Made by a program: the position numbers and the translations under genes. 64,000 bases of DNA from Sulfurimonas hongkongensis (GTDB taxonomy: Bacteria; Campylobacterota; Campylobacteria; Campylobacterales; Sulfurimonadaceae). This document shows positions 21,027 through 27,274 of this stretch, piece after piece; position 1 is the first letter of the stretch; every line of letters begins with the position of its first letter. Location: NCBI RefSeq assembly GCF_000445475.1, contig NZ_AUPZ01000004.1, forward strand, positions 124,001 to 188,000. The letters run 5' to 3'. The notes beneath the pieces were generated by a model. It was not told the origin of the DNA. It did no database searches and worked only from the letters and a program-made list of their open reading frames with translations.

Positions 21027-23075
21027 ATGAAAATTATAGCATGGATTTTAGGAATAATTTTTAGTTTAATTTTTTTAGCTTATATAATTGCATTTACATC
21101 TTTTGGCAACTCAATAATAGCACCTACAATAGAGTTAAAAATAAAAGAGCAGACGAAGATGGATAGTAAGCTTAGTACATTTTCTCTAAGTATGAGTGAG
21201 ATTGATGTAATTTTGGAGATAAGTGAGCAAAATATTATCAAAATAAAAGGTAATTACTCACTCTTTTCACAAAGTTTTGACCTTAACTATAAAGTGGAGT
21301 TAAATAACCTTGCATCTCTTAAACCTCTAACAAATGTAGAACTTCGCAACTCACTCTTTACAAACGGAAAAGTAAAAGGAGATATGGCTTTTATGAACAT
21401 AGATGGAGTAAGTGATGTGGCTTCTAGCACTACAACTTACCATATTGAGCTAAAAGACCTAAATCCTACTTCCATCATCGCTAAAATAAATGGAGCTAAG
21501 CTAGATGAGCTTTTAGAGATGGGAGCACAAAAGAACTATGCAGATGCTAAAATAAATCTTGATGTAAACTTTAAAAATATTGTGCCAAACGCCCTTGATG
21601 GAGATGTAGTTTTAAAAACTAAAAACGGTAGTTTAAACACAAAAGTAATGAGAGATGATTTTAACATAAGTATACCCCCAAAAACTGCTTTTGCTATGGG
21701 ACTAAATGCAAAACTAAAAGGTGCTGATATTATTTATAGCTATGAGTTAGCTTCAAATCTTTTTAAGGTTACGTCATCAGGCTCTTTGACTCCAACCCCT
21801 TTGAAGTTAAATGTGAAGTATGCGCTAGATATAAAAGAGTTGGAGCTTTTAAAGCCTTTAAGCGGTGTAGATGTTAGAGGTTCACTTAAAGTAGATGGAA
21901 CTGCAAAAGGAGTAAAAGAAAAACTTATAGTTGATGCCATTAGTGATGTTGCATCTTCTGAGACAGTTGTTCTTGCCACGCTAGAGGATTTTGAGACAAA
22001 GAGTGTTAAAGCTAGGATAAAACATCTAGACATAGCAAAAGCTCTTTTTATGCTAAAGCAACCGCACTATAGTGATGGAAAGTTCTTTTTAGATGCAGAT
22101 ATAACAAATGCAAGGGCTTCAAAGTTAAAAGGGGAGATAACTACTAGCATAAGTGATGGGCTTCTTGATTCAAACTATATTACTAAAACATATGAGTTTA
22201 AATCTAAGATGCCAAGAACTTTATTTAAGCTAGATACAAAAACTTCACTTGATGCAGATAGGGCAATTTCTAAAGTTGACTTAGATTCAAGTTTGGCAAA
22301 CTTAAATATCAAAAATGCAGTGGTAAATATAAAAAGTGGCAAAATTAAGAGTGACTATAAGCTTAATATACCAAATCTTGATAGCCTATATTTTGCAACT
22401 GCTCAACACTTAAGAGGCTCTTTGAGTGCAAATGGAGACTTTACCCAAGGTGAAGATATGACTCTAAATCTTTACTCAAAAGTTGCAGGAGGAGAGCTTG
22501 TGGCAAAACTTCATAATGATGACCTAAAAGCAGACATAAAAAATATCCAAACTCTAGATGCACTTCATATGCTTATATATCCAGAGATGTTTAAATCATC
22601 TCTAGATGCAAAGCTTGACTATAATCTTGCTCTTAAAAAAGGTAAGCTTAGAGGCCAGTTAAAAGATGGAGAATTTACAAAAAATGAGATGCTAGATCTT
22701 ATAAAGCAGTATGCTAGGATAGATATGTACGCTGAGAGATTTAAGGGTGATGTTAGTGCTGATATCAATGTTGATAAAATAACAGCATCTCTAGAGTTAA
22801 AATCAAATACATCATCTATAAAAACTAAAGATACAAAGTTAGACACAAAAGCAAATAGTATAGACTCTAAGATAGATATAGTTGCAAACAAACACCCTAT
22901 ATCAGTGACTTTATGGGGAAATATTTCTTCGCCAAAAGTAAGTGTAGATGCTAAAGAGTTGATAAAAAAAGAGGCCCAGAAAGTCATCAAAAAAGAGGTA
23001 AATAAGATTATAGAAAAAGAGGTTGGAAAGTCTTTAGACAAAGAAGTAGGGAAGCTACTTAAAGGGTTTTTCTAA
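21027..23075 (+). CDS. Membrane-anchored AsmA-like envelope protein
   Basis: A 682-residue protein with one N-terminal membrane helix (about 3-26) and a long, beta-rich region, probably periplasmic. Segments such as DGVSDVASSTTTYHIEL and DAISDVASSETVVLATL show internal repetition, and later blocks (KSKMPRTLFKLDTKTSL) recall AsmA/DUF3971-type proteins that span the periplasm in lipid transport or outer-membrane assembly. The C-terminus is a run of Lys/Glu amphipathic repeats (KKEVNKIIEKEVGKSL). ATG 21027 has GGAGGA just before it. It converges with the GGDEF-EAL gene. Family placement is tentative. Confidence 0.6.
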   Translation: MKIIAWILGIIFSLIFLAYIIAFTSFGNSIIAPTIELKIKEQTKMDSKLSTFSLSMSEIDVILEISEQNIIKIKGNYSLFSQSFDLNYKVELNNLASLKPLTNVELRNSLFTNGKVKGDMAFMNIDGVSDVASSTTTYHIELKDLNPTSIIAKINGAKLDELLEMGAQKNYADAKINLDVNFKNIVPNALDGDVVLKTKNGSLNTKVMRDDFNISIPPKTAFAMGLNAKLKGADIIYSYELASNLFKVTSSGSLTPTPLKLNVKYALDIKELELLKPLSGVDVRGSLKVDGTAKGVKEKLIVDAISDVASSETVVLATLEDFETKSVKARIKHLDIAKALFMLKQPHYSDGKFFLDADITNARASKLKGEITTSISDGLLDSNYITKTYEFKSKMPRTLFKLDTKTSLDADRAISKVDLDSSLANLNIKNAVVNIKSGKIKSDYKLNIPNLDSLYFATAQHLRGSLSANGDFTQGEDMTLNLYSKVAGGELVAKLHNDDLKADIKNIQTLDALHMLIYPEMFKSSLDAKLDYNLALKKGKLRGQLKDGEFTKNEMLDLIKQYARIDMYAERFKGDVSADINVDKITASLELKSNTSSIKTKDTKLDTKANSIDSKIDIVANKHPISVTLWGNISSPKVSVDAKELIKKEAQKVIKKEVNKIIEKEVGKSLDKEVGKLLKGFF

Positions 23076-23082
23076 AGAGAGT

Positions 23083-24993
23083 TTATTTTTCAAAAAGCTC
23101 ACTGCTCTTTAGTAGTCTATCGCAAGGTTTCGCTATAAAGTAACCTTGCATATACTCAACTCCAAGCTCAGATAACTTATCATAAACTTCGCTAGAGTGG
23201 ACAAACTCAGCTATAGCTTTCATATTTGACTCTTTTGCAAAGGCTATGATGCTCTTTACTACCTTAAAGTCTCTCTCATTTGTTGCGATATTTTTTACAA
23301 GTGAACCATCTATCTTTAAAAAATCGGCTTCTATATCTATAATGCTTTTAAAGTTTGAGTAACCACTTCCAAAATCATCAATAGAGACAGATGCCCCGTA
23401 GCTATGGAGTAGTTTTACCTTCTCTTTAAACAGAGCTGTGTTTTGTATCTCATCACTCTCTAAAACCTCTATGGTAACTCTTGACGCTAAAGATGGGTTT
23501 GATGCAAAAGTCTCTATAAGAACAGCTTCAATATCTCTGTTTATAAGGTCTGTAAAGTTCATGTTAATGCTAACTCTTTGGCTAGAGTTTTTAAATTTAT
23601 CAAAGACTAAAGAGAGGATTCTTTTAGTAAGTTTATAGTGAATGTTAGTGTGTTTTAACTCTGGTAAAAATTGTGCAGGTGAGATGATTTTGCCATCAGT
23701 ATCTATGATTCTAACAAGTGCTTCATACTTAAATATTTCACCACTTTTACACTCATAGATGGGTTGATAGTAGCATAAAACTCTATCTTCCTCAATGGCT
23801 TGTTTTACAAAGTAGATATCTTTTGAGCTTAAATCTTGTGTCTCTTTAGAGTTGTCTTTATGGTAGATCACTCTATTTCTCCCCTCTCTTTTTGCTATAT
23901 AGAGCATTTTATCGGCTACCTTTATGGCTTCATTTAGATCTTTTTCTGCAGCTGGATACTCATGAACTCCTATAGAGACTTGCATCTCTATCTTGTTTTT
24001 TTCATATGTAAAGATATGAGAGCTTATATTTTTTCGTATTCTCTCATAAATCTCACTGAGGTTGTCTTTTGAGCCTCGGTTGTAAAGAAGTAGCATAAAC
24101 TCCTCTCCGCCATATCTTAGGAATATGTCGTTATCTCTGATGGAACTTTTTATGATTAAGCTACATTTAGAGAGTACTTCATCTCCAGCCTTGTGCCCAT
24201 AAACATCATTTACAACTTTAAAATGATCCAAATCTATCATAGCTAGTGAGTAGTTGTTTAGGTTGAGTCGAGGAGATATTTCCTGGAGATAGTTACGGTT
24301 GTAGATTTGTGTAAGAGGATCTGTAAAGATTTTTTTCCTAGTTATAAAGTAGTGAAAAACTTGCATAACGGTCATGAGTAGTAACAAAAATATAAAGATA
24401 ATTAAGATTACAAAAAAAGTTTCTAAAGGTCTAAGTAGATCTAAAATTTCTGACTGAATATTATCAGTAATATCAACGCTTAAAATACCTATTACCTCGT
24501 TTGAACTCTTTATTGGGTAGAGATAAGTTAGATATAGATTTTGCACCTTTTGTTGTTGTATGATTTGAGATTTTGAGTTTTGATATACAAGTGCGTACTC
24601 TTTATTAAAAACATCAAATTTTTGATAAAAGTTTGCCTTATCCTCTTTTGAAGCATCTAATAAAAATCTAAATCTATCGTCTGGGTCTTTATAGAGCAGA
24701 TAGATATATTTTATACTAGGTGTGATAAAAAGAGCTATCATCTCTTCATACTTAGCTCTATTTTCCTTGTTTGAGAGATGAGAAACAAGACTCTCTTTGC
24801 TTGTGATGGAATTCTTAGTTATTAGCGTCTCTTCTATATTTTTTAAGATATAAGATACATTCTCTATTTTGCTTTTTTGCATCTTTGCAAATATCTCTTT
24901 TTGAGTCTCTTTTATATATAGATATATGTAGATAAAAAAGACTCCTAGAACAAAGAGCATTAAAAACAGAAAAATTTCTTTTGCTTTTACCAT
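23083..24993 (-). CDS. Membrane GGDEF-EAL protein (c-di-GMP synthesis/breakdown)
   Basis: A 636-residue inner-membrane enzyme. TM1 (about 7-28) and TM2 (about 192-215) enclose a periplasmic sensor domain of about 160 residues. The GGDEF domain has an intact GGEEF near residue 296 and an RxxD inhibition site (RDND) five residues before it. The EAL domain has EALVRI near 423, then NMNFTD, EVLESDE, DDFGSGYSNF, KIDGSL and QGYFIAKP, a complete catalytic set. It may thus have both activities. It overlaps the small periplasmic gene upstream by 7 nt, which follows a TonB-type receptor gene; see the finding on this operon. Confidence 0.92.
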   Translation of the reverse strand: MVKAKEIFLFLMLFVLGVFFIYIYLYIKETQKEIFAKMQKSKIENVSYILKNIEETLITKNSITSKESLVSHLSNKENRAKYEEMIALFITPSIKYIYLLYKDPDDRFRFLLDASKEDKANFYQKFDVFNKEYALVYQNSKSQIIQQQKVQNLYLTYLYPIKSSNEVIGILSVDITDNIQSEILDLLRPLETFFVILIIFIFLLLLMTVMQVFHYFITRKKIFTDPLTQIYNRNYLQEISPRLNLNNYSLAMIDLDHFKVVNDVYGHKAGDEVLSKCSLIIKSSIRDNDIFLRYGGEEFMLLLYNRGSKDNLSEIYERIRKNISSHIFTYEKNKIEMQVSIGVHEYPAAEKDLNEAIKVADKMLYIAKREGRNRVIYHKDNSKETQDLSSKDIYFVKQAIEEDRVLCYYQPIYECKSGEIFKYEALVRIIDTDGKIISPAQFLPELKHTNIHYKLTKRILSLVFDKFKNSSQRVSINMNFTDLINRDIEAVLIETFASNPSLASRVTIEVLESDEIQNTALFKEKVKLLHSYGASVSIDDFGSGYSNFKSIIDIEADFLKIDGSLVKNIATNERDFKVVKSIIAFAKESNMKAIAEFVHSSEVYDKLSELGVEYMQGYFIAKPCDRLLKSSELFEK

Positions 24994-25418
24994 ATTTTCT
25001 CTTCTAGATAAGGGTCTAAATTACTTGAAGCTTGTATGGATAAAGCCTTTAGTCTTGATTTTAGGATAACTATGTTTGGTCTTCCCTTTTTCCAAAAAAA
25101 CGCACCAAAGCTCTTTGGTACTTGGGATAAAAGCTCATAATCTAAAACAAAAATGATAATATTAGAGCACTGTTTAGGAAGATTTTTTATATCTTGAAGT
25201 ATCACTATTGTTGCTTTTTTGCACTCTAACGTAGTGTGAATACGCCCTTTTTTTTCCATGGTAATGTAGAGTTTTTTGTTATCACTCCAGATAATCTTTT
25301 CTTTGTTTATGGAGATTTCACTTATGATTTTTTCTAAGATTTTAACTTCTAAGTCAAGAGGAGAGTCAGCTGCAAATGAGGATAGTGTTAAAAGAAGTGC
25401 TAAGATCAAGCTTCTCAT
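24987..25418 (-). CDS. Small periplasmic protein, YfiR/DUF4154-like
   Basis: A 143-residue secreted protein with a signal peptide (about 1-16, MRSLILALLLTLSSFAA). The C-terminal half, FFWKKGRPNIVILKSRLKAL followed by SIQASSNLDPYLEE, resembles the end of DUF4154/YfiR proteins, which have an FxxxxGRxxIxINxxxLxxxGLxISSxLL pattern. YfiR is a periplasmic inhibitor of the diguanylate cyclase YfiN. Two Cys (TLECKKATI and PKQCSNI) could form a disulfide. The start overlaps the receptor stop as TAATG and its end overlaps the GGDEF-EAL start by 7 nt, so all three are tightly coupled. The family call is distant. Confidence 0.55.
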   Translation of the reverse strand: MRSLILALLLTLSSFAADSPLDLEVKILEKIISEISINKEKIIWSDNKKLYITMEKKGRIHTTLECKKATIVILQDIKNLPKQCSNIIIFVLDYELLSQVPKSFGAFFWKKGRPNIVILKSRLKALSIQASSNLDPYLEEKIW

Positions 25419-27274
25419 TAAAAAGTGTACTCCATAGTTAGTAATCCTCGTCTCTCCATAGCAGGAACGTCAACTCCGTTTATACGTACTTCGTGAGCCT
25501 TATTTAGTAGATTTTCTCCCTTTAGTTTTAAGTCTAATTTTTTGTTTAGTGTATAAGTTACGCCTAGAGTATAGTTATAGCCAGCTGCCATTTTTTCGCC
25601 AAATGCAGACTCATAATCTGATCTATATACCAGTTCATTATATATATCAAACTTGCCTATTTTGTTAAAAAGCTGCACTAGAGCGCCTTGATCAGAGCTA
25701 ACATATTTTTTTTGAAAAATTTTAAAATACTCTAGAGTTATTTTGTTATTGATATCAAAGTTATGTGTAAAACGTACATATGCTCTTTGAAAAGTCGCAG
25801 TTTTATCCTTGTTAACATATTTTTTAAGAAAAGGATTAAAGACTATCATATTTTTTGCTTGAGCCTCTCCTGCACTCATAGTTACAATATTTTTTTTAGT
25901 TTTATAGGTAAGCTCAGCTGAGTAAATTCTGTTGTTGATACTCTCTAAATCTGGATTAATATTGAAATATGGCGAAAAGGTGGTCTGTCTAAAAGTTGGA
26001 TACACATAGCTCTTCATAGCAAAGAGTTTGAGAGTCCAGCTATCATCAAAAAGGGCGACATATCCTAGTCTAAGTATATGCTCAGTTGATGACGTGGTAT
26101 CTACATTTTCGTATCTATCAAGTTTTGCACTAATTGTTATAAGATTATCTTCATTTATGTTGTATAGGTTTTCTGCATAAGCCATAAAAATATTTCTCTT
26201 TGTTGGTCCCCAGTTTTTACTCACACTAGCACCATCTCTTTTATACTCATTTATGTCAAATTTTTGGTGTTTTATTTGAGCACAAACAAATAAGTCATTG
26301 TTTCTACGAACAAATCTTTTTTCTAAAATAGCATTTATAATATGACTTCCTATATCTACATCAACTTGTTTTGGTTGTGGAGTGTCTGCTGTTAAAATAG
26401 CTACAGCATCTTTGTTTAAGACTTCTAGTCTTTCATGTGAGAGACTAAGTATAAAGTTTAGATTTTTATCAAAATGCTTGGTAGCTTGAAGATAAACATT
26501 TGTAGCATCAGTATGTCCATCAAGAGGAGCATTACCTAAACCAGAAAAAGAATCATACTTCTCTTTTGTTGCTCCAAACTCTATATCAAAACTCTCTTTT
26601 TTTGAAAACTTTGCATAGACTTGACCTCTTTGCCCATCGCGTGATAAATTATATCCATGTGCATCATAAGTTTTGTAGTTATTTTTGCTAACATCAAAAT
26701 TGGCTAAATATGAGTACTCATCAAACTCTCTTGCATCGATGGCTCGCAGAGTTAGACTGCCTCTTGTATCTATAGAAGTTTGTAGTGAAGTGGCATTTTC
26801 ACGAGATGGTTCTTTTGTGTATAGTTTTATAACCATACTTCCGGGTTCATTTCCAAAAACAACAGAGTTACCCATCTGATAAACCTCAATGTGGTCTATA
26901 AAGTAGAGACTCATCTTCCCATACTGAGTTAGAGCATCGCCTAGAGTAGCAGAGTTTAACTCATGTGAATTTATAAAGAGTTTTACAGAGTTAAAAGCAG
27001 TTTGATCACTCCCGCTTTTAGAGAGATTTGTCATTCCTGTTCTTGTAGCTTCTAGGTTAAACATTCTTATAGTTTTTAAGACATCATTTAGAGTATAAGC
27101 TTGCATCCTATCTAGGTCTGAACGAGAAAAAAGTATGAGGTTTCCAGCACTCTCTTGTTTTGTTTGATGATAGAGTGATTGTGATTTTTCATATTCGCTC
27201 AGCAGATCATCTAGTAGCACCTCTTTTGCAAAAAGAAAGGTAGATATAAAAGATACTAAAAGCAGTAGTCTCAT
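25418..27274 (-). CDS. TonB-dependent receptor-like outer-membrane protein
   Basis: A 618-residue outer-membrane protein with a signal peptide (about 1-16). A plug domain follows: FSRSDLDRMQAYTLNDVLKTI near residue 49 to about 155. The rest is a beta barrel with alternating aromatic strands, ending RRGLLTMEYTF with a terminal Phe, the BAM signal. It is shorter than most siderophore receptors and I see no clear TonB box. The ligand is unknown; there is no periplasmic binding protein or ABC transporter beside it, and the next two genes are signalling proteins. This suggests sensing rather than, or besides, uptake. Confidence 0.75.
   Translation of the reverse strand: MRLLLLVSFISTFLFAKEVLLDDLLSEYEKSQSLYHQTKQESAGNLILFSRSDLDRMQAYTLNDVLKTIRMFNLEATRTGMTNLSKSGSDQTAFNSVKLFINSHELNSATLGDALTQYGKMSLYFIDHIEVYQMGNSVVFGNEPGSMVIKLYTKEPSRENATSLQTSIDTRGSLTLRAIDAREFDEYSYLANFDVSKNNYKTYDAHGYNLSRDGQRGQVYAKFSKKESFDIEFGATKEKYDSFSGLGNAPLDGHTDATNVYLQATKHFDKNLNFILSLSHERLEVLNKDAVAILTADTPQPKQVDVDIGSHIINAILEKRFVRRNNDLFVCAQIKHQKFDINEYKRDGASVSKNWGPTKRNIFMAYAENLYNINEDNLITISAKLDRYENVDTTSSTEHILRLGYVALFDDSWTLKLFAMKSYVYPTFRQTTFSPYFNINPDLESINNRIYSAELTYKTKKNIVTMSAGEAQAKNMIVFNPFLKKYVNKDKTATFQRAYVRFTHNFDINNKITLEYFKIFQKKYVSSDQGALVQLFNKIGKFDIYNELVYRSDYESAFGEKMAAGYNYTLGVTYTLNKKLDLKLKGENLLNKAHEVRINGVDVPAMERRGLLTMEYTF

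Follow-up and report, generated by a model that had tools for sequence, protein, structure and literature searches.

TonB-type receptors of the FecA/FpvA type (FecA-FecR-FecI) send a signal inward through the periplasm, and the known signalling route of TonB-type receptors runs via an anti-sigma factor to gene expression. The YfiBNR system of Pseudomonas aeruginosa likewise spans three compartments. YfiR acts on the periplasmic PAS domain of the inner-membrane enzyme YfiN, and YfiB sequesters it at the outer membrane (PMC3375315, PMC4655355). The YfiR-YfiN core is modular and occurs mostly without YfiB beyond close relatives; its outputs include GGDEF-EAL proteins and kinases, and TonB goes unmentioned in this account (Malone et al., PMC3375315). 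A three-gene operon of Sulfurimonas hongkongensis now looks like an undescribed route for an outside signal into the cell. It lies in a stretch of 64,000 nucleotides (contig NZ_AUPZ01000004.1, positions 124,001 to 188,000 of the forward strand), referred to here as the window, and coordinates are counted from its first letter.

The operon consists of three minus-strand open reading frames of 618, 143 and 636 amino acids, which encode, in transcription order, a TonB-type receptor, a periplasmic protein and a GGDEF-EAL enzyme:

25418..27274, minus strand: TonB-dependent-receptor-type outer-membrane barrel, 618 amino acids (Pfam Plug and barrel; N-termini of 61 relatives; contrast with receptors of the same genome)
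24987..25418, minus strand: small secreted periplasmic protein, 143 amino acids, with a YfiR-like predicted fold (model m82debe51e78e and PDB fold match)
23083..24993, minus strand: inner-membrane GGDEF-EAL enzyme, 636 amino acids (Pfam GGDEF and EAL; motifs read in the sequence)

Given their gene order, their co-occurrence and the swapping of their output, the three genes are one conserved signalling unit. By analogy, they are proposed to encode a YfiBNR-like relay across three compartments, in which the lipoprotein YfiB is replaced by a TonB-type barrel gated by a ligand. We give this reading a probability of about 0.62, because receptor and small protein are strictly adjacent and co-occur, signalling outputs are swapped, YfiR is the top fold match of the small protein, and canonical YfiR genes are placed alike. 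An extracellular ligand, or another change in the state of the barrel, would alter the plug and a conserved N-terminal segment of the receptor, and the altered segment would capture or release the YfiR-fold protein in the periplasm. This protein would otherwise bind the Cache domain of the enzyme and set the balance between its GGDEF domain, which makes cyclic-di-GMP, and its EAL domain, which breaks it. As in YfiBNR, the free small protein may repress the cyclase and the receptor may relieve that repression; with a bifunctional enzyme, the sign of regulation is a guess. We infer the contacts between the proteins, the gating by a ligand, and the passage of a signal from receptor to enzyme together with its direction.

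The likeness to YfiBNR covers the three compartments, a periplasmic protein with a predicted YfiR fold, an outer-membrane partner and the swapping of outputs among relatives. It also covers a GGDEF enzyme of the inner membrane, which bears a PAS/Cache-type domain outside the cytoplasm and whose gene stands next to the yfiR-like gene. However, the outer-membrane element here is a TonB-type barrel and not an OmpA-like lipoprotein, and the enzyme carries EAL in addition to GGDEF, with no HAMP match. The small protein does not match PF13689, nor does it have a counterpart of the Cys145-Cys152 pair, the stabilising disulfide of P. aeruginosa YfiR. With FecA/FpvA-type systems the operon shares a TonB-type receptor as the putative source of a signal across the periplasm. 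In contrast to those systems, the receptor has no STN signalling domain (no Pfam match at E<=1), and its partners are a YfiR-fold protein and a cyclic-di-GMP enzyme instead of an anti-sigma factor.

Gene order, co-occurrence and output genes

Within 60 genomes of the genus, the small protein has 44 clear matches, 43 of which lie directly downstream of a receptor match. The receptor has 47 matches in the same genomes; the small-protein gene comes next in 43 cases, and the remaining four matches stand at or near contig ends. Profile searches over 298 Campylobacterota genomes found receptor and small protein in 53 genomes each, 52 of them in common, spread over 18 of 58 genera. Here, 61 of 63 small-protein matches come directly after a receptor gene. 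Adjacency in both genome sets is far beyond chance; the hypergeometric value for co-occurrence is 6e-56, a figure that ignores kinship and is illustrative only. Most exceptions have a plain cause: the contig ends, the receptor is present in tandem, or DNA of about 2 kb is inserted into it; in genome G016 the receptor adjoins a kinase and a different small YfiR-like gene, not one of the 143-amino-acid type. The nearest named relatives of the operon are found in Sulfurimonas genomes (the closest has a receptor of 86% and a small protein of 71% identity), and others occur in metagenome-assembled genomes of Aquificota (L101, L111, L114, L132 and L144); the gene set holds together in both phyla.

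Among 95 distinct loci, the receptor is upstream of the small protein in 92, with a median gap of -4 nucleotides. In the window, the receptor and small-protein genes overlap by 1 nucleotide and the small-protein and enzyme genes by 7. Thirteen further Sulfurimonas-type loci, whose small proteins are 36-71% identical, were compared: 12 have the 7-nucleotide overlap as well, and in the thirteenth the overlap is longer, owing to the start codon chosen. The initial annotation had described a three-gene operon with these overlaps, and the reading frames are confirmed at the positions listed above. Its further argument, that the overlaps point to a fixed stoichiometry, is weak, since overlaps do not set stoichiometry and only suggest translational coupling. 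Promoter and terminator scans gave a signal no higher than in shuffled sequences.

The downstream gene encodes a GGDEF-EAL protein, a GGDEF protein or a histidine kinase in 90 of the 95 loci, the main outputs being GGDEF-EAL (57 with receptor), GGDEF (21) and kinase (7). At least four output changes are required by the small-protein tree, which was built from 128 columns and contains many weak forks. A single sensor-domain alignment spans all three variants, placing a common Cache domain before different outputs. Some kinase variants are accompanied by response regulators: a REC-PAS-EAL protein is encoded next door in two loci (L059, L230), and in two others (L119:2904-4070, L051:2897-4069) the gene upstream of the receptor encodes a REC-SpoIIE protein, whose phosphatase domain is of SpoIIE type.

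These neighbourhoods bear on a rival explanation, in which a plain uptake receptor is merely co-transcribed with a cyclic-di-GMP enzyme and has the small protein as its accessory. The receptor does match Plug (25.5 bits, cut-off 23.9) and TonB barrel (27.2 bits, cut-off 27) in Pfam, both narrowly above the cut-off. It also shows a weak full-length similarity to the NCBIfam B12 receptor model TIGR01779, at 37 bits far below the cut-off of 600. However, no transporter or uptake family recurs beside the module in the 95 loci, the three-gene set stays intact while its flanking genes vary between relatives, and the output switches among signalling enzymes. Receptor relatives accompanied by an uptake system but not by the small protein and enzyme were sought as a sign that the receptor belongs to uptake; none was found, and the relatives stand instead with the small protein and a signalling output. 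The receptor also lacks a TonB box, as described below, and a search for Rfam RNAs near the operon, cobalamin riboswitches included, found none. Plain uptake is accordingly judged very improbable.

The receptor and its N-terminal segment

The receptor carries a signal peptide. Inspection found no TonB box near its mature N-terminus or near those of its relatives, of which 61 N-termini were compared. The other TonB receptors of the genome show a box recognisable by eye in 10 of 11 cases, so the lack of a clear box reported in the initial annotation is borne out by the contrast; TonB boxes are degenerate, and absence by eye is no proof of TonB independence. The eleventh belongs to the second operon of this genome described below, made up of receptor, 181-amino-acid protein and GGDEF-EAL enzyme. 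In place of the box stands a conserved segment:

27089..27211, minus strand: conserved segment replacing the TonB box, receptor residues ~22-62, LDxLLxxYxxxSxLxxxTKxESAGxxxVxTRxDLxxMQ (61 receptors)

The segment centres on T38-K39, G44, R51 and M57-Q58, and the same columns emerge from a separate receptor alignment. Conservation in the 61 receptors reaches 100% for T38, 89% for K39, 98% for G44, 98% for R51 and 97% for M57. We propose that the small protein may make contact with the receptor here.

Mean identity is 39% in the plug versus 25% in the barrel, the most divergent of all parts. A better kept plug is expected if ligands differ while the inner partner stays constant, although ordinary receptors often show this pattern too. 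The divergence argues against a variant of the relay in which the barrel responds not to a specific ligand but to stress at the outer membrane or in the periplasm, as proposed for YfiB, all else being as above, since a variable barrel is what would be expected if relatives bind different ligands. A barrel of 600 residues with a plug would also be a costly stress probe. On the other side, the sequence reveals no identifiable ligand, and YfiBNR has been discussed as a system that may sense stress in the periplasm (PMC3375315). Sensing of the envelope state is held to be improbable.

The small protein and the enzyme

The initial annotation had called the small protein YfiR-like. The resemblance stands at the level of the predicted fold and is not visible in sequence profiles. 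An AlphaFold model built from 72 relatives (m82debe51e78e) has a mean predicted local distance difference test score (pLDDT) of 92.4 and a predicted template modelling score (pTM) of 0.82. When it was compared by Foldseek with 350,542 PDB chains, with no target chosen beforehand, the top match was YfiR (4yn9_B; E 1.1e-3, probability 1.00, template modelling (TM) scores 0.61/0.59). The top 20 include 12 entries named YfiR or YfiB-YfiR and three more titled bacterial repressor or signalling complex; binding proteins of a single lobe also appear in these 20 places. No credible Pfam family was matched by the small protein, and membership of DUF4154 (PF13689), which the initial annotation had suggested testing, was not found: profile hidden Markov models matched neither the window protein nor any of 30 relatives (0/30) at E<=1. 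An unrelated family, which would have counted against the YfiR reading, was not found either, and PDB sequence searches with the small protein and the receptor gave no match. On this model the small protein has the YfiR fold, and homology to YfiR is likely, though without proof from sequence.

A family signature marks the C-terminal part of the protein:

25074..25106, minus strand: family signature GAFFWKKGRPN, residues 105-115, predicted beta hairpin before two C-terminal helices (30 relatives; model secondary structure)

W109 is invariant and G105, K111, G112, R113 and P114 are at least 90% conserved, as counted on 30 relatives found without the motif as seed, because a motif-seeded scan would bias the count. 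In YfiR, the surface formed by the hairpin and the C-terminal helices binds YfiB and probably YfiN (PMC4655355). The GAFFWxKGRPN motif appears to occupy the topological place of the YfiB-binding surface, a mapping made by topology only. The only cysteines of the small protein are C62 and C84, neither in the C-terminal region that corresponds to Cys145-Cys152; the YfiR cysteines are not conserved in the fold relatives of YfiR either (PMC4655355).

The enzyme comprises three domains:

24454..24891, minus strand: periplasmic single-Cache (extracytoplasmic PAS-type) sensor domain, residues ~35-180, between two transmembrane helices (model m33d2ebe4023d)
23872..24327, minus strand: GGDEF domain, residues 223-374, with GGEEF active-site motif and I-site (Pfam; motif read from sequence)
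23125..23805, minus strand: EAL domain, residues 397-623, with the expected catalytic residues (Pfam; EALVR, N, E, DDFG, KID, E and Q read)

The Cache-domain model has a pLDDT of 89.7. Its best PDB matches are the extracellular domains of WalK/YycG (4ywz_B, TM 0.53/0.73), and CitA is among the matches; the likeness to these extracytoplasmic sensors lies in the common predicted fold of the periplasmic domain only. The PAS domain of YfiN was itself modelled on CitA (1p0z) by Malone et al. (PMC3375315). The Pfam matches (GGDEF, E 2e-38; EAL, E 1e-57) agree with this model in placing a membrane GGDEF-EAL enzyme with a periplasmic domain here, as first annotated. The motifs GGEEF, RxxD I-site, EALVR, DDFGSG and LKID occur in the closest relative (L071) and are readable in the window enzyme as well, and both domains are predicted to be active.

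Cache domains commonly bind small ligands, and the pair of NspS and MbaA offers an analogy for a carrier that presents a solute to a sensor domain. An arrangement of this kind would make the small protein a one-lobe substrate-binding carrier, which presents a solute admitted by the barrel to the Cache domain and is not a sequestered repressor. Single-lobe Rhodothermus substrate-binding proteins and one Vibrio cholerae protein follow close behind YfiR in the fold ranking, the receptor has both plug and barrel, and the genome holds several TonB genes. Yet YfiR entries occupy most of the top fold ranks and the receptor is without a TonB box. The conserved motif, moreover, falls on the hairpin and C-terminal helices, which by topology only correspond to a protein-binding surface in YfiR (PMC4655355). 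Such a carrier is considered unlikely, while deserving some weight.

Several points weigh against the YfiBNR-like relay. The Foldseek E value is just 1e-3, and single-lobe substrate-binding proteins score almost as high. When the small protein and its relatives were compared, profile against profile, with 26 PF13689 proteins from this phylum, the initial score was 85.6% (P 5.6e-6); this was produced by signal peptides and was rejected as sequence proof of YfiR homology. With signal peptides trimmed, P is 0.003-0.004, against 0.02 for the best shuffled control. Because trimming weakened the comparison, the YfiR assignment rests on structure and gene context. A few loci break the pattern: L056 lacks an intact receptor upstream, and G179 holds a weak relative that stands alone. 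Mirror-tree distance correlations among the three proteins (0.80-0.89) were dropped as evidence of contact, as they are not specific and simple co-inheritance fits them equally.

Related operons and neighbouring genes

The architecture of receptor, YfiR-type protein and output is not confined to this operon, since it is also seen around canonical YfiR proteins elsewhere. In Campylobacterota, genes for canonical members of PF13689 have a TonB receptor gene on one side and a GGDEF, GGDEF-EAL or kinase gene on the other. The annotation of a Sphingobium indicum plasmid lists a TonB-dependent receptor, a YfiR family protein and an ATP-binding protein in a row, and genes annotated as hypothetical proteins form this layout on a second Sphingobium plasmid; a plasmid search with the small protein gave no match. 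These operons share gene architecture and output types with the one in the window, but their small proteins form another subfamily with no significant sequence similarity, and their receptor gene is sometimes downstream.

Together with the canonical YfiR operons, the operon may represent a general class. It seems somewhat probable that TonB-type barrels act as outer-membrane ligand sensors which control cyclic-di-GMP enzymes or kinases via YfiR-fold proteins, and that this class is undescribed. It would include two or more YfiR-like subfamilies, between which no sequence similarity is detectable, and extend over Campylobacterota, Aquificota and Alphaproteobacteria. In a full-text collection with few subscription journals, searches for YfiR or DUF4154 together with TonB found no paper describing a TonB receptor-YfiR system. 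If the relay is true, attachment or motility could be tied to an outside molecule without importing that molecule, and YfiR proteins without a YfiB partner would gain their missing outer-membrane input. Many orphan receptors of vent and sediment bacteria would then become testable sensors.

A second, parallel operon in the same genome (L220:4097-8736; G000:C2, ~159096-163735) begins with the eleventh TonB receptor mentioned above, in which no TonB box is clear. Downstream are genes for a secreted protein of 181 amino acids, which matches no Pfam family credibly, and for a HAMP-GGDEF-EAL protein. Elsewhere, PF13689 matches fall within long frames near TonB receptors, one of 514 amino acids with GGDEF (L192; G190:C70) and one of 637 amino acids (L193; G266:C72), which suggests a YfiR-like domain fused to the output protein.

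Rearranged copies of the operon also occur. In three loci (L097, L092 and G094:C21:2136-6285), the receptor, or receptor and small protein, is duplicated in tandem upstream of a single enzyme gene, perhaps providing two inputs to one output. In a genome of another family (L229; G113:C1, 477199-481212), the receptor is split in two by an insert of ~2 kb while the downstream genes remain. Stop codons break the small-protein gene of a further locus (L042; G004:C13:27216-27825), where the receptor and enzyme frames are open.

Convergent to the operon, at 21030-23075 of the window, lies a gene for a 681-amino-acid protein without a Pfam match. It is kept beside the operon in most Sulfurimonas relatives, and its product has repeated motifs and an AsmA-like appearance by eye.

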